Part shown: positions 3,249-25,981 of the stretch, piece by piece
How the letters are laid out: every line of letters begins with the position of its first letter
How positions within the stretch are numbered: position 1 is the first letter of the stretch
Assembly (NCBI GenBank): GCA_024694145.1
Contig: JAILKD010000078.1
Location: 1 to 33,371 of the forward strand
DNA from: a bacterium
Lineage (GTDB): Bacteria > Bacillota_I > Bacilli_A > Acholeplasmatales > JAEDCM01
Reading direction: 5' to 3'
Length of the DNA stretch: 33,371 nucleotides
Translations under genes and position numbers: made by a program
Notes under the pieces: generated by a model
Seen by the model: the letters and a program-made list of their open reading frames with translations, nothing else
What the model was told of the DNA's origin: nothing
Databases searched by the model: none

Positions 3249-3267
3249 GATGTTTTCTTGCATTATT
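3239..3267 (-). terminator. intrinsic terminator of the DUF2156 gene
   Basis: Minus strand: stem AATGCAAG / CTTGCATT around a 7-nt loop, then a T-rich tail. The TAA stop of the DUF2156 gene is at the base of the stem. Confidence 0.8.
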
Positions 3268-4078
3268 TTGTAAAATATTTTTTATAATAAGTTACAGGGT
3301 AATAACTTCTTTTTGCTTTTCTAAGTCCTTCAAACCCTGCATCATCTTGTCTATTAATATATTTAATATTATAGTTTTCTAACATATATTTAGAATATAA
3401 ATTATTAATTACTTGATAAACTCCCTTATATTCTATATTAGCTTTTTCTATATGAACATGTAATATATCAAATAGAATTTCTCCAACAGTAAAAGCAACA
3501 ACTCTTTTATCTACTCTTAGAAGCATCCCAATAAAGTTAAATTTATCATAATGCTTTAACATTTCTAATGCCATATTAGCCTCATATATAGCCATTTTCT
3601 CAACAGGTCTAGTTAAATTAGAATATTCATTTATAATATCTTTAATATTATCTTTATTAATTATTTCAAAAGAATAATTAGGATATAAATTATTAAAGTT
3701 TTTAATATGATCTTTTTTCTTATCATATTTCTTATCAGTTAGATAAGCTAAATCCACTGCATTATATACATAATCTTTTCTAAAATCTATTTCTTCTACT
3801 TCTTTATTTTTAAATAAACTTAAATATTGTTCAGGAATTAGTGTTATTTTATTATTCTTTAATGCATCAAGTGCTTTTTGGTAATCACCTAATGGAAATA
3901 AATATCCATCATCTGATTTTATTATTAAATAATCATTAGTATAGCATATTTCATATCCATAAAAATCCTTCCACATAAATATGGCCCCAACAGTTAAATC
4001 AGATATGTAATAGTTGTTCATAGATACAAATTTTTTTATTATGTCTAAATCTTTACATGTTATTTTCTTGAAACTCAT
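3263..4078 (-). CDS. DUF2156 (GNAT-fold) domain protein
   Basis: A 271-residue DUF2156 protein, the fold shared with the C-terminal domain of phosphatidylglycerol lysyltransferase (MprF) and related to GNAT acyltransferases. Family features: VGAIFMWKDFYGYEI near the N-terminus, DDGYLFPLG, and the C-terminal signature YINRQDDAGFEGLRKAKRSYYPV. No membrane segment, so this is the soluble stand-alone form, not a flippase-linked aminoacyl-lipid synthase. The N-terminus matches the family, yet the ATG sits only a few bases after the T-run of the yebC terminator and has no recognisable SD. It may be translated from readthrough mRNA or a weakly leadered transcript. Substrate unknown. Confidence 0.82.
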   Translation of the reverse strand: MSFKKITCKDLDIIKKFVSMNNYYISDLTVGAIFMWKDFYGYEICYTNDYLIIKSDDGYLFPLGDYQKALDALKNNKITLIPEQYLSLFKNKEVEEIDFRKDYVYNAVDLAYLTDKKYDKKKDHIKNFNNLYPNYSFEIINKDNIKDIINEYSNLTRPVEKMAIYEANMALEMLKHYDKFNFIGMLLRVDKRVVAFTVGEILFDILHVHIEKANIEYKGVYQVINNLYSKYMLENYNIKYINRQDDAGFEGLRKAKRSYYPVTYYKKYFTK

Positions 4079-9011: not shown

Positions 9012-9992
9012 TTATAATAAATGTCCTAATATTTCTTCATATTCTTTATCAATTAAATATTTAGGAGCAATATCAAATGCTGTATAGCATCCGCTATGTC
9101 CTTCCTTATTTAATCTATAGCAAGCTCTTGCAAAGCTAATTAGAATTGAACCAGTAAAAAATGGGTTAGAATCTAATTCTAGAGTTAATTCAATCATATC
9201 TTTATATTGATTTCCAAGCCCTGTAGCACCTGTTCTAATTACATGCCCTCCATGAGGCATTCCAGAATGTTTTTCTTTTAATTCTTCTAATGAAATGAAA
9301 TGAACTGTTGTATCATAATCAGCAAAGTAGTTAGGCATTTCTTTGATTTCTTTTTCAATTCTTGCTTTATCAGCGCCTTCTTTAGCAACTACATAACATA
9401 ATCTTGTATGTTTTTCTCTTGTAGTAAGTTCTGGGTTAGAACCACTTCTAACAGCATCTAAAGCTTTTTTAACTGGTACTGTATATTGTTTTGCATCAAG
9501 TACACCATCAATTCTTCTAATAGCATCGCTATGTCCTTGACTAACTCCCTTACCCCAGAATGTATAATCGCATCCATTAGGTAAGAAACTATTAGAATAT
9601 AATCTTAAGATTGAGAAGAATCCTGGATCCCAACCTACTGAAATAACACCAACATTATTTCCTTTTTTAGCGCTTGCATCAACATTTTTAAAATGTTCTA
9701 ATACTCTTGCATGAGTATCAAATGAATCAACTACATTAAAGTTTTTAGCAAGTTCTGGTGTTTGTACTGGTAGATCAGTTGCACTACCTCCGCATAATAC
9801 TAAAACATCAATTTTATCTTTAAAACTTAAAATATCATTTGCACTAAAAACTGGTGCGTTTGTTTCAGTTTTAACAGTTGAAGGATCACGTCTAGTGAAT
9901 ACTCCAACTAAAACTGTATCTTTACTATTCTTAATAGCGGCTTCTACCCCTCTACCTAAATTTCCATATCCATATATACCTATTCTAATCAT
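9012..9992 (-). CDS. ddh: meso-diaminopimelate D-dehydrogenase
   Basis: A 326-residue NADP-dependent enzyme interconverting L-tetrahydrodipicolinate and meso-diaminopimelate, the one-step branch of lysine and peptidoglycan precursor synthesis. Rossmann motif GIYGYGNLGRGVEAAI at the N-terminus; VGVFTRRD; the family signatures LCGGSATDLP, SFDTHARV, ISVGWDPGFFSI, FWGKGVSQGHSDAIRRI, and MPHGGHVIRTG. Length matches known Ddh proteins (about 320-330). It implies a DAP-containing cell wall or at least lysine synthesis. AAGGAGG RBS and its own promoter; the ACT-domain gene follows directly. Confidence 0.95.
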   Translation of the reverse strand: MIRIGIYGYGNLGRGVEAAIKNSKDTVLVGVFTRRDPSTVKTETNAPVFSANDILSFKDKIDVLVLCGGSATDLPVQTPELAKNFNVVDSFDTHARVLEHFKNVDASAKKGNNVGVISVGWDPGFFSILRLYSNSFLPNGCDYTFWGKGVSQGHSDAIRRIDGVLDAKQYTVPVKKALDAVRSGSNPELTTREKHTRLCYVVAKEGADKARIEKEIKEMPNYFADYDTTVHFISLEELKEKHSGMPHGGHVIRTGATGLGNQYKDMIELTLELDSNPFFTGSILISFARACYRLNKEGHSGCYTAFDIAPKYLIDKEYEEILGHLL

Positions 9993-10125: not shown

Positions 10126-10152
10126 AAAAAAGGAAGTGAATTAACACTTCCT
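10126..10152 (-). terminator. intrinsic terminator of the giant repeat protein gene
   Basis: Minus strand: AGGAAGTG / CACTTCCT stem with 6-nt loop, then a run of T, just past the stop codon at 10159. Confidence 0.9.
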
Positions 10153-10158
10153 AATTTA

Positions 10159-13100
10159 TTAAATTGTATAAGTTGTATATCCATTTAATGTAGCATCACT
10201 TGGATAAAATGACCAATCTATTGGACTATTATTTACAGTAATATTTACATCTAAGCCAAGTACAGCAGCAAGTGTTGCATCTGCACTAATAGTTGATAAG
10301 TAATCCATATCTTCTATCTTAGTAGTTTTTAGTTGTAAATTAATATCTCCAAATATATTAGATCCAACAAGCTTAGCTCCATCAAGTGTTACTTTATAAG
10401 TGTTATTAGAACCACTATAAGATTTTAATACTTCTTCAATCTTTGGATCTGCCTTTTCAGCATTTCTAATTGCATTAGCAACTGTTGAACCAAAATTGAA
10501 TATCCAAATAATTTGTTCTAGTGCATCTTTGCCAAAATCAGATAAGCTCATCTTTCTAGTTTCTGTAGAACCAGCAACTCTCTTTATATAGATCATATCA
10601 TCTTGGATATAAATATAAGTCTTTGTATCTTTCTTAATTAATAATCCAAGGAAATCAATTCCAAGTTTTGAAATATCTAAATAGATATACCCTCTAAGTT
10701 TTCCGTTATGATCAAAATCAAGCATACAATCTAAATCAACACCTGCACTTAAGTTTAGCCCAAGTAGACTCATAGATACACTACCGCTTAATGCTAATTC
10801 ACCATTATTATAATTGTTTAATCCAGCTTTAACCAAATTACCAATACCATTAAAATCTAAGCATCCTGCATAGTTTGCAGCTGTAATGTCTTCATTTTCT
10901 AATAATTCAAAATGACCATTTAATATATCATTATTGATTTCAAAGTCAACTACATCTAAGCCACTAACTACTCCACCAGTTCTAAATACTTTAAATGTTT
11001 GTAAGTTGTTTTCTGTATTATTTCCTAAATCAATTGTTAAGTAATCACTATTAACTAATAATTCAATTTCATTTAGATTAATAATATCTTTAACCATTGA
11101 TAAGTCAATAGTTTTTACTTTTGAACTAATATCATCATATAACTCATCAAAATCACCATTAGTATTAACGATAGTTCCTAAATAAGTTATAGCCATCTTA
11201 ATAGTGTCATTATCAATATTAAGTGCATCAAGTGCATAATTAGCTACATCAATTAGTTCATTAAAGTTAATCTTAAATTTAATTGATTGAGTTGTTGTTG
11301 AATTAATTGGGTTACTACTATTAAAGTTTGTAATTGTTTGACTGAAGTTTAAGAATGCTACATTTTCAATAATACTTGCTTCAATGTAGTATTTCTTATC
11401 ACCTTTTACAAGAATTACTTTACCATATAATGATAAGCCTTTATCAGGTTTAAATGTTACAATGTTTGCTCTTGCATATACATCATAGCCATTAACATGA
11501 AGTTCAAATCCAATATTGTAACGCCATTTTTCTACTATATCCTTTAATTGTTTAGCATATTCAATTAATAAATCTAATTCATCTTTATTAATATTAGCAA
11601 CAGGCATTACTACTTCTTTAGCACCATCTTCAATTAATGTAGCATCAATTAAAACATCACTTGCGCTAACTTCAAATTTTAATCCCTTTTCAATATTAAT
11701 ATTAACATTAGAAAGCAGACTGCTAATAGAACTTAAATCAGCACTAATCATTAATTTATTAGTAATTGCATCAATTGTAATATTGTTTAAAATGCTATTA
11801 ATATCAAAATCAGTTTTAATACTATCTGTACTAATATTTAAGCCAAATTGAGTATTAATTTCAGCTATAATTCCATTAATATCATTAATGTTAAACATAA
11901 TAGATGTTTTACCAAATGATACATAAATATTTTTATTCTTATAGATTAATTTAATGTTATTTATTTCAAGTCCGCTATAATTAACATTTAATAATGCTTC
12001 TACTTCTAAATCTTTATTTAAATAAATGTTTCCATCTACTTTTAAATCTTTATAAGTAGCACTTATGTTAAAGCTATATCCATCATAATTTAATGCTTCT
12101 TTAATGTCATCTACTAAGAAGCTTATTAAACTAAAGTCTAGATATTCATCTTTATTAATTGTAATTATTTCTTTAGTAGTTTCAGTTAATTTAATGCTTG
12201 ATACTAAATCTTCTGCCTTAACAATTACGCTAGAATCTTTATTCACTGTTAAATTAACATTTCCTAAAATACTAGTAATGCTTGATAAGTTAGCACTAAT
12301 ATCTAATTTATTTTCATCTAGTTTAATTAATAATCCTTCAAGTAAGCTATCAATATCTATATTAGATGTCTTAACATCTCCAACTAAAGCTAAGATATCT
12401 TCGATACTTGCTTTTACTTTGATGTTAAATAAACTAATATATAATTCGTTATCAATAAAGTATGCCTTAATATCATTAAATTCATAGTCTTTATATTTAA
12501 TATTAAGTGTTGCACTAACATTTAAATCTTTATCTAAATAAATATTACCACTTACTATTACATCTTTATAAGTTAGATTAATAGCAAAATTATATGCATC
12601 ATAATTAATTGCTTTAGTTATTATATCAATTAACCATGTAACATTAGCTACATCATTATATTCAACATCAGGATTTATTAATACTTCTTTTTCAGTTTCC
12701 TTAATGCTTAATTTTAAATTGTATTTACTAATAACTACATTAAGTGCATCATCTTTATAAACACTAATCTTAAAGTCTTTTAATAATTCAACATACTTAG
12801 ATAAGTCAATTGATAAATCAAATGCCTTTTCACCAGTTATATCAATATTAAGTGACTTAATAACATCTAATATATCAGTTAGTTTAATACTTACATTTCC
12901 TAAATCAATTGTTTTATCACTGAATTTATTTATATCATTAATATTGAACTTAAAATATAAGTTATCAAAGTTTGCATAAACTGTTTCGTTATTGTAATAA
13001 ATATTAATTTCATATTTATCATTAACTTTGATAATTCCACTAGCTAAGCCATTATTATATAATACATTAGCATTTATTTTTATATCTTTAACAGTTGTTT

Positions 13101-14616
13101 CTAAATTAATTTCAAGCGGTTTATTAATTAATGATTTAACTTCATCAATTATAAAGAACATATTAGCTATATCTTCATAAGAATCATCAATAATTGGATA
13201 TGTATGCTTTTCAGATGGCTTCATAGTTAAAACTATTGATTTGCCAAATACATCAACTGTTGCATAAATATCTTTGAACTTATAAGTATCACCACTTAAT
13301 GAAGCATTTATTGCTGCATTAGCTTTAATACCCATTAAATCTAATTTAATATTTATTGTTACATCGTTACCATTTTTAATAATTTCTGCATTTTGTACTT
13401 GAGATAGTAAACTATTTAAATCTATAGCACTAGTTAATGCGCTACTACTATTATTATCTTTTAAGTACTTATTTAAATCATTTATATTTAGCTTATATTT
13501 GTTTTCACCAAGTTTAATATAAACATCATTACCTTGATAGCTTACAAATATATCACTAATATCAGCATTGACTTTTACACCACTAGCTTCAAGCTTAATG
13601 TTTAAATCTCCTTCAAGCTTTGTATCTAAGGCATCAACAGATATTTTAAAGTCATTCATATTACCTTGAATAAGTGGTCCAAAGATTTCTTGAAGATAAC
13701 CAATTACATCTTTTTCTCCTTCTTCAAGATCGGTTGCTACATCATTAATATGAGCTTTGAATGCTTCTTTATCTGGAATTTCAAATAGACCATATTCTAT
13801 TTTTTCTTCCATATTACATTTACAAGTGATATCACCTATACCTGGCATACCAATATCATATACTTCATAAGTGTCTACTTCAATTGGTGTCCAATCGCTA
13901 GATAGAGTAATTGTTAAAACTGTTTCTTTATATCCTGGATATCCTTTAGCTCCACCTATTGTTTTTGTTTCTCTTTGCTTTTTAGGAACTGCTTTTACTG
14001 GATCCAAATCTAATGTTAATGTATAGTTTCCATTTTCAGCTGCTTCTATTTTAGCATCTCTAATAGTTTCTTCATTTAAAATATATGCTTGGAACTCTTT
14101 TGGATGCCATCCATATTTTTCTAGGAAAACATCATTTGTAATTGTTTGGTATTTATCAGAATGATTCTTTCTAACAACTACTTGATTGTTTTGTAAGAAT
14201 TTTTCTTCATAAACATGAACAAGTGAACTATCAGAAATTGTTTCAATATAACAACCATCTTTTGTTACGATTCTTGTATTATGAATATCTTGTTTATAAT
14301 TAATTACCGCAACCTTTGCAGAAACTGTACCAGTAGTAACAGATTTAAATTCTTCTGTATGTCTTATTACCCAGTTACAAATAGCTGCATTATCAAGACC
14401 ACTATAATCTAGTGGATTACCTGATGTAGGACGTTCCTTTTCAAACGAATCTGTTTCTTCAGCTAAAGCATAGTGCTTTGAGCTAAATGCTTTTATAATA
14501 AACACTGCTGCAACAACAAGTATTGCAGAAAATAGTATGATTAATTTTTTATGCTTAATTCTTGGTGTCTTCTTTTGTTTTTTCTTCTTATTATCATCCA
14601 TGATATTATCAGCCAA
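10159..14616 (-). CDS. giant membrane-anchored extracytoplasmic repeat protein
   Basis: A protein of 1485 residues if read from TTG at 14616, which sits 9 nt after AAAGGAG; an ATG at 14625 abuts that SD too closely and an ATG at 14601 is also possible. Residues below count from the 14625 ATG. A lysine-rich cytoplasmic start (11-27), one membrane helix (28-46), then an entirely extracytoplasmic body without LPxTG or C-terminal anchor. Residues about 76-290 form one beta-rich domain. From about 320 to 1130 there are at least four, probably five, repeats of 172-186 residues, aligned by xINDINxxx (381, 562, 741, 913, 1121) and by the strand pair before it (325, 503, 678, 850, 1036). A degenerate copy may occupy 1290-1370. 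Alternating hydrophobic/polar strands suggest long curved beta-sheets, possibly lipid-binding. Function unknown; no enzyme motif seen. Confidence 0.85.
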   Translation of the reverse strand: MADNIMDDNKKKKQKKTPRIKHKKLIILFSAILVVAAVFIIKAFSSKHYALAEETDSFEKERPTSGNPLDYSGLDNAAICNWVIRHTEEFKSVTTGTVSAKVAVINYKQDIHNTRIVTKDGCYIETISDSSLVHVYEEKFLQNNQVVVRKNHSDKYQTITNDVFLEKYGWHPKEFQAYILNEETIRDAKIEAAENGNYTLTLDLDPVKAVPKKQRETKTIGGAKGYPGYKETVLTITLSSDWTPIEVDTYEVYDIGMPGIGDITCKCNMEEKIEYGLFEIPDKEAFKAHINDVATDLEEGEKDVIGYLQEIFGPLIQGNMNDFKISVDALDTKLEGDLNIKLEASGVKVNADISDIFVSYQGNDVYIKLGENKYKLNINDLNKYLKDNNSSSALTSAIDLNSLLSQVQNAEIIKNGNDVTINIKLDLMGIKANAAINASLSGDTYKFKDIYATVDVFGKSIVLTMKPSEKHTYPIIDDSYEDIANMFFIIDEVKSLINKPLEINLETTVKDIKINANVLYNNGLASGIIKVNDKYEINIYYNNETVYANFDNLYFKFNINDINKFSDKTIDLGNVSIKLTDILDVIKSLNIDITGEKAFDLSIDLSKYVELLKDFKISVYKDDALNVVISKYNLKLSIKETEKEVLINPDVEYNDVANVTWLIDIITKAINYDAYNFAINLTYKDVIVSGNIYLDKDLNVSATLNIKYKDYEFNDIKAYFIDNELYISLFNIKVKASIEDILALVGDVKTSNIDIDSLLEGLLIKLDENKLDISANLSSITSILGNVNLTVNKDSSVIVKAEDLVSSIKLTETTKEIITINKDEYLDFSLISFLVDDIKEALNYDGYSFNISATYKDLKVDGNIYLNKDLEVEALLNVNYSGLEINNIKLIYKNKNIYVSFGKTSIMFNINDINGIIAEINTQFGLNISTDSIKTDFDINSILNNITIDAITNKLMISADLSSISSLLSNVNINIEKGLKFEVSASDVLIDATLIEDGAKEVVMPVANINKDELDLLIEYAKQLKDIVEKWRYNIGFELHVNGYDVYARANIVTFKPDKGLSLYGKVILVKGDKKYYIEASIIENVAFLNFSQTITNFNSSNPINSTTTQSIKFKINFNELIDVANYALDALNIDNDTIKMAITYLGTIVNTNGDFDELYDDISSKVKTIDLSMVKDIINLNEIELLVNSDYLTIDLGNNTENNLQTFKVFRTGGVVSGLDVVDFEINNDILNGHFELLENEDITAANYAGCLDFNGIGNLVKAGLNNYNNGELALSGSVSMSLLGLNLSAGVDLDCMLDFDHNGKLRGYIYLDISKLGIDFLGLLIKKDTKTYIYIQDDMIYIKRVAGSTETRKMSLSDFGKDALEQIIWIFNFGSTVANAIRNAEKADPKIEEVLKSYSGSNNTYKVTLDGAKLVGSNIFGDINLQLKTTKIEDMDYLSTISADATLAAVLGLDVNITVNNSPIDWSFYPSDATLNGYTTYTI

Positions 14617-14642
14617 AAGAATCATCTCCTTTTCCTATTTTT

Positions 14643-14679: not shown

Positions 14680-14708
14680 ATTTTATTATTTTTTATAAAA
14701 AAAGTCAA
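14680..14708 (-). promoter_or_regulatory. promoter of the giant protein gene
   Basis: Minus strand: TTGACT (14703-14708), 17-nt spacer, TAAAAT (14680-14685). A TATAAT box (14675-14680) is also present but at 22-nt spacing. Confidence 0.6.
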
Positions 14709-14780: not shown

Positions 14781-14806
14781 AAAAATAAAGCTCCTTTTAA
14801 GGAGCC
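14781..14806 (-). terminator. intrinsic terminator of cdaA operon
   Basis: Minus strand: GCTCCTT / AAGGAGC stem followed by TTATTTTTT, at the stop codon of the 59-residue gene. Confidence 0.85.
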
Positions 14807-14985
14807 TATTTAAACCATAAATAGAATGATAATGTCATAACTGCTGTAAGAATTAAAGTTATTCCATATACAATATATATTCTTTTAGAAATAGATTTTG
14901 TAATCTTTTCACTATTAACATGACTTGTTACTTTTCTAAAAGGATCTGTGATAAATCCAAAAATAATTGAAAGTACTCTTTTCAT
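14806..14985 (-). CDS. 59-residue single-span membrane protein downstream of cdaA
   Basis: A short ORF encoding 59 residues starting MKRVLSIIFGFITDPFRKV, with a charged middle (SHVNSEKITKSISKR, about 21-35) and a hydrophobic C-terminal helix (IYIVYGITLILTAVMTLSFYLW, about 36-57). Translation is well supported: AGGAGGT lies at good distance from the ATG and uses the last bases of the cdaA stop codon (TAGGAGG), and a terminator follows the TAG stop directly. It is therefore the second and last gene of the cdaA transcript. Not recognised as a known family. It occupies the place where cdaR (YbbR) commonly follows cdaA, but is far too small and has no YbbR repeats. Confidence 0.8.
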   Translation of the reverse strand: MKRVLSIIFGFITDPFRKVTSHVNSEKITKSISKRIYIVYGITLILTAVMTLSFYLWFK

Positions 14986-14995
14986 ATGATACCTC

Positions 14996-15751
14996 CTACT
15001 TTAAGAACATATCAATGTATTCAACAAGCTTTTCTCTATCGCTAACTCTAAGCATGATACCTTCTGTTGTAATACTGATATGACCTGTTTCTTCACTACA
15101 TACAATAGTTAGTGCATCACTTACTTCACTTATACCAAGTGCAGCTCTATGACGTGAACCCATTGTTTTATCACCAGATTCAGATTGAGTTAATACATAA
15201 TATGCACCAGCACAACGTATTTTATCTCCTCTAATAATTACAGCACCATCATGTAGTGGTGTATTTGGTTCAAATATATTGATTAGTAATTCTTTTGAAA
15301 TATCAGAGTTCATTTGAATTGCTTTTTCAGCATATTGGTCTAATGAGTTATGCTTTTCAATTGTAATAATAGCACCAATCTTTCTTTCAGCTAAATAATA
15401 GACTGCATCTATTATAGCTCCCTTTGAGCTTTGTGAGCTAGAAATAGTCCTTATTGTACCGATTTCTTGAGGTCTGATACTATCAAGTTCTAAGCGTAAT
15501 TCATGTCCAATTAATACCATAAATAAGAAAGGAATATAGAATCTTAAATTGATTCCTTCCCCTGTAAATAACCATTTAGCCATTTTTAATCTTCCACTTG
15601 GAGCTTTTTCAACTAATATCGCAATAGCTAAAACTACTCCACAGAATAAAGAATAAATAAATATTTTCTTATTCTTTAAAACTATTGATAGGATAAATAA
15701 AAATACTACAAAGATTATATAAATATCTAAAATCATCCATAAAATATCCAT
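14996..15751 (-). CDS. cdaA: membrane diadenylate cyclase CdaA (DacA)
   Basis: A 251-residue c-di-AMP synthase: three N-terminal membrane helices (about 5-25, 30-47, 70-88), then the DAC domain. The catalytic motifs are intact: LHDGAVIIRG (DGA at 168-170) and GSRHRAALGISE (RHR at 200-202), followed by SDALTIVCSEETGHIS. It joins two ATP into c-di-AMP, the messenger controlling potassium and osmolyte transport and wall homeostasis in Bacillota. The usual partners cdaR and glmM are not adjacent; instead a 59-residue membrane protein is co-transcribed. Promoter is an extended -10 with a very short leader, divergent from hflX. Confidence 0.95.
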   Translation of the reverse strand: MDILWMILDIYIIFVVFLFILSIVLKNKKIFIYSLFCGVVLAIAILVEKAPSGRLKMAKWLFTGEGINLRFYIPFLFMVLIGHELRLELDSIRPQEIGTIRTISSSQSSKGAIIDAVYYLAERKIGAIITIEKHNSLDQYAEKAIQMNSDISKELLINIFEPNTPLHDGAVIIRGDKIRCAGAYYVLTQSESGDKTMGSRHRAALGISEVSDALTIVCSEETGHISITTEGIMLRVSDREKLVEYIDMFLK

Positions 15752-25000: not shown

Positions 25001-25981
25001 TTATTTTTCATAAATAAAATAATATTCTTCTGTTTTCTTTATCAATTTATCATTTTGATAACGTGAAGTTTCTATTAATCTATTATTTGAATCATATTTA
25101 TATTCTATGGCTACTTGTCTCTCCCAATCTTTCTTACCAGGAACTAAATAAGTTTTTTTAGTCATATTATTATTTAAATCATATTCATATGTTGTTTTTT
25201 TACTTTCAACCCAAGAATCATTTGTTCTATCAACTTCAAATTCTAAATCTTCTTTAATATTACCATCAGCATCATAACTATATTTATCTAGTCTCTCTTT
25301 TTCCCATTTGTTTGACTCATAAGGTTCATAATAAAACACTTTTTCTAATAATCTATTATTCTCATCATAATTATAAACATATCTAGTTCTAAACATCCAA
25401 TCATCACTTTCACTATCTCCATCATACTTAGAACCATATGTTTCTAAAATAAGATTATTATTCAAATCATATTCATATTCACACTTATGTTCACCTATTC
25501 TAGATGGAATAGATGAATCAGTATATTCCAATACTAGATTATCATTTTCATCATAAGAATATGTAGTATATGATTTATACCAGTTTTCATTTTCTACTTC
25601 CATAGCTAGTAGGCCTTTATCATTATAAGAATAATATGTTGTAGTAGAACTACTACTTGCAACATTTATTTTTACGCATTCTTCTAGTTTGTTGTTTTCA
25701 TTATATTTTTTATCTGTTTCAAATATTAATACCCATTCTTTTCCGTTATATTGATATTCATATTTAAATATTTCATTATCATTTTCATCATAAATGTAAT
25801 CAGTTCTAAAATTAGCTTTAATATTTTCACTATATGTATCCATAACAATTTTTATAGTACCACTACCACTATATTCATAATCTATTTTTGAATAAGTTAA
25901 GTAGTCTTCTTTTTTAATTTTACATCCAACAAGTATTAATTGAAAAAATATTAAAAAAAATGTGATAAATGCTTTTTTCAT
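25001..25981 (-). CDS. lipoprotein with YD-like repeats
   Basis: A 326-residue secreted lipoprotein: signal peptide with lipobox ILVGC, lipidated Cys20, then an exported body made of about eight short units of the form Y-x-Y-D/N-x-N-N/D-x-L (YDENDN, YNENNK, YNDKGL, YDLNNN, YDENNR, YDADGN, YDSNNR), resembling YD/RHS-type repeats but without a toxin or core domain. Such repeats form beta-strips and are often surface-exposed; a specific role is not known. It has RBS GGGGAGA and sits 30 bases after maf without a terminator, so maf and the lipoprotein share a transcript. Confidence 0.82.
   Translation of the reverse strand: MKKAFITFFLIFFQLILVGCKIKKEDYLTYSKIDYEYSGSGTIKIVMDTYSENIKANFRTDYIYDENDNEIFKYEYQYNGKEWVLIFETDKKYNENNKLEECVKINVASSSSTTTYYSYNDKGLLAMEVENENWYKSYTTYSYDENDNLVLEYTDSSIPSRIGEHKCEYEYDLNNNLILETYGSKYDGDSESDDWMFRTRYVYNYDENNRLLEKVFYYEPYESNKWEKERLDKYSYDADGNIKEDLEFEVDRTNDSWVESKKTTYEYDLNNNMTKKTYLVPGKKDWERQVAIEYKYDSNNRLIETSRYQNDKLIKKTEEYYFIYEK

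Follow-up and report, generated by a model that had tools for sequence, protein, structure and literature searches.

A membrane-anchored giant protein of the Acholeplasmatales with tandem modules of predicted LolA-type fold

Architecture of the giant protein

The DNA analysed here, contig JAILKD010000078.1 of assembly GCA_024694145.1 (33,371 nucleotides, hereafter the window), comes from a bacterium of the order Acholeplasmatales. On its minus strand it carries a gene, present in a single copy in the genome, for a very large protein (hereafter the giant) that is predicted to consist of one membrane anchor and a chain of seven modules of the LolA-type fold. The coding sequence and the parts identified in it are as follows.

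10159–14625, minus strand: whole coding sequence, 1488 amino acids from the ATG at 14625 (open reading frame list and translation)
14488–14544, minus strand: membrane anchor helix, residues 28–46, with a lysine-rich N-terminus before it, N-in and C-out (transmembrane prediction and sequence)
13756–14400, minus strand: N-terminal module (N-module), residues ~76–290, where conservation within the family is highest, with a helix, six strands, a helix and five strands (profile and model)
13204–13701, minus strand: repeat 1 (R1), residues 309–474 (repeat profile and model)
12649–13182, minus strand: repeat 2 (R2), residues 482–659 (repeat profile and model)
12133–12663, minus strand: repeat 3 (R3), residues 655–831 (repeat profile, phmmer and model)
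11593–12147, minus strand: repeat 4 (R4), residues 827–1011 (repeat profile, phmmer and model)
10903–11583, minus strand: repeat 5 (R5), residues 1015 to ~1241, divergent, with a longer helical lid (profile match 1015–1214, and model)
10162–10860, minus strand: repeat 6 (R6), residues 1256–1488, divergent and C-terminal (profile match 1256–1472, and model)

The ATG at 14625 overlaps a Shine-Dalgarno-like AGGAG, and an in-frame TTG at 14616 is better spaced; for this reason the TTG, which a preliminary description of this locus had taken as the start, is the likelier one. There is one clear transmembrane segment (residues 28–46), in keeping with the N-terminal anchoring proposed in that description, and neither a C-terminal transmembrane segment nor a sorting motif was found in the sequence, as it had also held. 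This distinguishes the giant from LPXTG wall-anchored proteins, which combine a C-terminal sorting signal with a wall; wall enzymes were not found in this case (see below).

Behind the anchor lie seven modules, namely the N-module and six tandem repeats of ~175–240 amino acids. Four to six repeats following a beta-rich domain had been proposed previously: the repeats are borne out, but they number six, and to these is added the N-module, of the same predicted layout. After iteration over homologues, a profile seeded with three repeats detects six copies that lie contiguously (E 4e-8 to 1e-34), while the best whole-sequence E-value for reversed and shuffled giant sequences is 0.04. R1–R4 also align directly in pairwise phmmer comparisons (R3–R4, E 2e-28; R2–R4, 7e-12; R2–R3, 2e-8; and, weakly, R1–R4, 9e-6), so the modularity of the protein stands. 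R5 and R6 are longer, are not recognized pairwise by phmmer, and are found only through the family profile. The INDIN-like motifs, at residues 379, 560 and 911, correspond to the end of the sixth strand and the start of the lid helix. Profile comparison detects no sequence similarity between the N-module and the repeats, and it is therefore only the shared predicted layout that suggests their kinship.

Predicted fold of the modules

Scans of the whole giant against Pfam and NCBIfam gave no match, with LolA (PF03548), LppX_LprAFG (PF07161) and MucB_RseB all failing to reach their curated cut-offs. Similarly, none of 31 N-modules and 57 repeats exceeds the cut-off of the Pfam LolA-type families (a single repeat reaches E 0.02 against LppX_LprAFG, which is at the noise level), and sequence profiles from the PDB give nothing significant for the N-module and the repeats, with BPI and an Lmo2119 chain appearing at the noise level (E 0.2).

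Residues 30–659 and 655–1488 were modeled with AlphaFold2 on family alignments of 31 and 21 sequences respectively, with mean predicted local distance difference test (pLDDT) values of 80.1 and 78.6. In the models, the N-module, R1–R4 and R6 all show a helix, six strands, one or more helices, and five strands; in R5 the first six strands are followed by just four long ones in the second half. The Foldseek matches in the PDB with a probability of 0.99–1.00 belong mostly to the LolA superfamily, among them LolA from several species and VioE. For the first model, those at 1.00 include LolA, LprG, RseB, LolA3, EPD-BCP1 (ependymin-type) and other outer-membrane-lipoprotein-sorting proteins, and BFA1 ranks first by E-value. 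For the second, the high-probability matches are LolA (2w7q, TM-score 0.56 by target length), LprF, LprG, LolA3, MucB and the Borrelia LolA; sliding clamps (DnaN) rank higher by E-value, but have a probability below 0.8 and a TM-score of ~0.1, and are treated as spurious.

As the layout of six plus five strands agrees with the 11 strands described for LolA and EPDR (PMC6363788), and the Foldseek matches fall mostly within this superfamily, the modules are predicted to carry the LolA-type (beta-clam) fold, and the architecture of the protein is well supported. This agrees with the LolA/LppX-like half-barrel guessed in the preliminary description, and the contrary outcome that it had named, a fold of immunoglobulin (Ig)-like adhesin domains, was not found in the predicted structures. 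The sheets of alternating hydrophobic and polar residues are likewise recovered, with an alternation in the predicted strands of 3.92, about twice the 1.91 ± 0.27 of shuffled strands (0 of 500 shuffles reach it). Such amphipathic strands are compatible with a concave hydrophobic pocket, and no more.

The giant thus resembles the LolA/LolB/LprG/LppX/RseB/EPDR superfamily (CATH 2.50.20) in its predicted 11-strand half-barrel, in the placement of helices after strand 6 and before strand 7, and in its amphipathic strands. In contrast, known members possess a single LolA-type module, to which RseB joins a further domain of a different kind, while the giant chains seven, and its relatives up to about twenty, behind one anchor. 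LolA proper is a soluble periplasmic carrier, the partner of LolCDE and LolB in cells with two membranes, whereas the giant is membrane-anchored and belongs to an order of the Mollicutes, which have a single membrane. No description of tandem LolA-module arrays was found in the open-licence papers searched, and as far as these show, this would be the first description of a LolA-fold protein built as a long tandem array. What is new is therefore the arrangement, long anchored arrays of LolA-type modules; the fold class itself is known.

The models also bear on the possibility that the grooves of adjacent modules align into a continuous hydrophobic channel, forming a bridge-like conduit along which lipids would slide from a partner membrane or particle to the cell. 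An anchored, long beta chain is the general outline of the AsmA/TamB-type design. The giant, with its N-terminal anchor and long chain of amphipathic beta-modules, resembles it in outline, as it does the eukaryotic bridge-like lipid transfer proteins, whose beta-repeats also have hydrophobic faces. However, the modeled modules are discrete 11-stranded units, their relative orientation is poorly determined (predicted template modeling scores, pTM, of 0.49 and 0.52), and none of the top Foldseek matches is TamB, VPS13 or another repeating beta-groove protein. Furthermore, neither an outer membrane nor a wall is expected in the host cell. I consider such a conduit improbable.

Distribution and evolution of the family

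Homologues are found in the Acholeplasmatales and in sister families of the class, with lengths of up to 4623 amino acids and 3 to 19 repeats, in line with the varying repeat number for which the preliminary description had suggested a search. The named relatives are from Acholeplasmatales metagenome-assembled genomes, one of them from yak rumen. The N-module is present in 45 of the 160 genomes of the order and 65 of the 395 of the class, and in a 392-genome sample of the phylum its matches are confined to the class. One protein matched by the whole-protein query (L056, 613 amino acids) is an ABC transporter, and a chance match.

The anchor and the N-module are retained across the family, which takes three forms. 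In the first, common in the class, a single module of ~300 amino acids follows the membrane helix, and some of these proteins are apparently lipoproteins. The second, in families f11 and f21, is an adjacent pair of anchored proteins, one consisting of the N-module (~300 amino acids) and the other of four modules (~955 amino acids). The third comprises the fused giants of 3–19 repeats. At nine loci, the split pair adjoins a divergently oriented XRE-type regulator with 3–4 C-terminal membrane helices:

L083, 9444–10049: XRE-type regulator, divergent to the split pair
L084, 9865–10470: XRE-type regulator, divergent to the split pair
L085, 5902–6513: XRE-type regulator, divergent to the split pair
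L090, 6783–7406: XRE-type regulator, divergent to the split pair
L091, 12270–12872: XRE-type regulator, divergent to the split pair
L092, 7019–7699: XRE-type regulator, divergent to the split pair
L093, 11409–12074: XRE-type regulator, divergent to the split pair
L094, 1864–2454: XRE-type regulator, divergent to the split pair
L095, 10626–11219: XRE-type regulator, divergent to the split pair

The regulator and the split pair form an apparent conserved cassette, which suggests that regulation is linked to the state of the membrane. This association, together with the presence of RseB and MucB among the best fold matches, would fit a protein that binds peptides or lipoproteins outside the cell in a regulatory or chaperone-like role, comparable to RseB/MucB in stress sensing, or to LolA as a lipoprotein chaperone. 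However, beside the fused giants, those of the window's own lineage included, no conserved regulator is found and no Lol transporter was seen, and sensing does not need arrays of 6–19 modules. This is the explanation that I regard as least probable.

Among the fused giants, the number of repeats varies widely. Seven are present in the giant of the congener G001, where the window protein has six. In several homologues (L042, L043, L033, L041, L044, L060 and L061), modules return in an alternating pattern with 78–100% identity, modules 3/5 and 4/6 being one example, which points to recent duplication of two-module units, although short-read assembly may miscount the modules in these sequences. 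This suggests a path from the single anchored module, through a two-gene cassette with a membrane-bound regulator, to fused giants that lengthen and shorten through two-module duplications; I propose this order tentatively. In family f3, C-terminal extensions were identified in giants such as the following:

L037, 12897–14594: C-terminal extension with Flg_new (InlB-type) and LRR_5 (BspA-type leucine-rich repeat, LRR) domains
L045, 14897–16336: C-terminal extension with Flg_new (InlB-type) and LRR_5 (BspA-type) domains

Both the duplications and these tips are relevant to the main rival explanation, in which the giant is a stalk-like adhesin or a surface coat, with LolA-like modules as spacers and a chain length that sets the reach to plant fibre, host or other cells. 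Repeat numbers that vary widely, with recent two-module duplications, are a feature of adhesin stalks, and Flg_new and BspA-type LRR domains are common in surface contact proteins, notably the InlB/BspA-type gut surface adhesins; like these, the f3 relatives are N-anchored or secreted surface proteins. Against this, neither the window protein nor its genus possesses the tip domains, and the repeats of the giant are not of the LRR, Ig or InlB type. Spacers are usually small, stiff Ig-like domains, and a 175-residue half-barrel with a lid would be an odd one. In addition, the ~300-residue single-module versions, common in the class, cannot act as stalks. I view a stalk or adhesin as unlikely, if less so than the other alternatives.

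The host cell and a possible role in lipid capture

No penicillin-binding transpeptidase, FtsW or Mur ligase was matched in the window genome (84% complete) or in two congeners (81% and 72%), whereas the controls, and walled relatives, did give matches. The host is therefore probably wall-less, as Mollicutes are, and the idea that the chain spans the wall, raised in the preliminary description, finds no support, as there is probably nothing to span. A ketoacyl synthase was not matched in these three genomes either; its absence from all three through incompleteness alone would be unlikely (~1%), and fatty acids are apparently not synthesized by the host itself.

Taking the fold and this context together, the reading that I favour, and hold to be about evenly balanced between right and wrong, is that the giant is a surface-exposed binder with multiple pockets, serving to capture lipids, or hydrophobic ligands of other kinds, and to deliver these to the membrane. 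The giant would be held in the cytoplasmic membrane by its N-terminal helix, with the chain standing on the outer face. Each of the seven modules probably forms a hydrophobic pocket under a helical lid; hydrophobic-ligand binding in the pocket is the unifying trait of the LolA superfamily (PMC6363788), and on this ground the modules may be cups for such ligands. Arranged in series, they could pick up fatty acids, sterols, phospholipids or other hydrophobic molecules from the surroundings, which would then be handed from one module to the next, or carried along as the chain bends, until they reach the membrane of the wall-less host, apparently a cell without fatty-acid synthesis of its own. This direction of transfer is one that I infer. 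In favour of this reading, ketoacyl synthase is absent within the order from 24 of the 37 giant-bearing genomes, against 26 of 94 others when genus g12 (small genomes, probably phytoplasmas) is set aside. The membrane-bound XRE regulator beside the split form, with its suggested control by membrane state, also fits it.

Membrane-anchored lipid extraction has a precedent in a wall-less bacterium, namely P116 (MPN_213) of Mycoplasma pneumoniae, also a large, single-copy anchored ectodomain and proposed to capture lipids from the environment (PMC10023570). However, the fold of P116 is unique, with a single huge cavity, and forms no tandem array, in contrast to the LolA-type matches of the giant; the two may be analogous, and nothing indicates homology.

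Several observations weigh against lipid capture. TM-scores to single LolA structures are moderate (0.42–0.56 by target length), the pockets could hold nothing more than the lid helices, and no lipid transporter gene lies beside the giant. The three genomes without a ketoacyl synthase match are incomplete. The association of the giant with absence of ketoacyl synthase is suggestive only, as the statistic ignores kinship, and it is weak (P 0.04) with g12 included, where 55 of 123 others lack the enzyme. Finally, 13 giant-bearing genomes possess a ketoacyl synthase, and 13 of the 37 possess wall enzymes. The giant is thus not confined to lipid-dependent or wall-less cells, nor, since it occurs in walled relatives, is it a consequence of wall loss. 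A link between the giant and wall absence was not found in the order, where walled members, if anything, carry giants more often.

The more specific proposal, a lipid-transfer protein of new design in which lipids from the environment are handed, or flow, through anchored tandem LolA-fold cups to the membrane of wall-less, fatty-acid-dependent cells, and in which gaining or losing two-module units would adjust the capacity, is possible but doubtful. Lipid acquisition by wall-less bacteria outside the genus Mycoplasma is little known, P116 being the worked example found, and the family provides a concrete candidate for it in uncultured gut and rumen Bacilli. The giant may represent a means of taking fats from the environment that has not been described before, in a small, seemingly wall-less rumen bacterium.

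A separate observation concerns ketoacyl synthases. In genera g17 and g18 of family f3, open reading frames (ORFs) of ~800 amino acids with two ketoacyl-synthase C-terminal domains occur in addition to a normal FabF or in its place (G091, G093, G097, G099, G105, G117, G119, G120 and others).

Genomic surroundings

The same-strand neighbours of the giant gene are cdaA (14996–15751) and ddh (9012–9992), and the following candidate signals flank it:

14788–14807, minus strand: terminator-like hairpin between the cdaA unit and the giant gene (hairpin scan)
14680–14708, minus strand: promoter-like site upstream of the giant gene, TTGACT-17-TAAAAT (consensus match only)
10131–10152, minus strand: terminator-like hairpin immediately past the stop codon of the giant gene (hairpin scan)

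With a hairpin and a promoter-like site before it and a hairpin after it, the gene looks like a transcription unit of its own; compared with a shuffled-sequence control, terminator-like hairpins are enriched, and promoter-like sites are not. A role tied to cdaA, with the giant in place of cdaR, was considered and rejected: the context is wholly different in other families, where neighbours include ackA, trmFO and xerC (named by eye from the sequence), and the hairpin between cdaA and the giant gene also contradicts it. Directly after cdaA, and before this terminator, lies an ORF of ~58 amino acids with a membrane helix (14807–14986, minus strand). In typical Bacilli, this is the position of cdaR.

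The ddh gene (9012–9992, minus strand) encodes a diaminopimelate dehydrogenase, which is retained here and in the congener G001 although no markers of peptidoglycan synthesis were found, and probably serves lysine synthesis. Rfam and tRNA searches of the window gave no match. Further along the minus strand, the only match of a 271-residue protein (3263–4078) is to the C-terminal domain of lysyl-phosphatidylglycerol synthase (MprF), and the flippase part is missing; a 326-residue ORF (25001–25981) has a match to RHS_repeat (E 6e-10).

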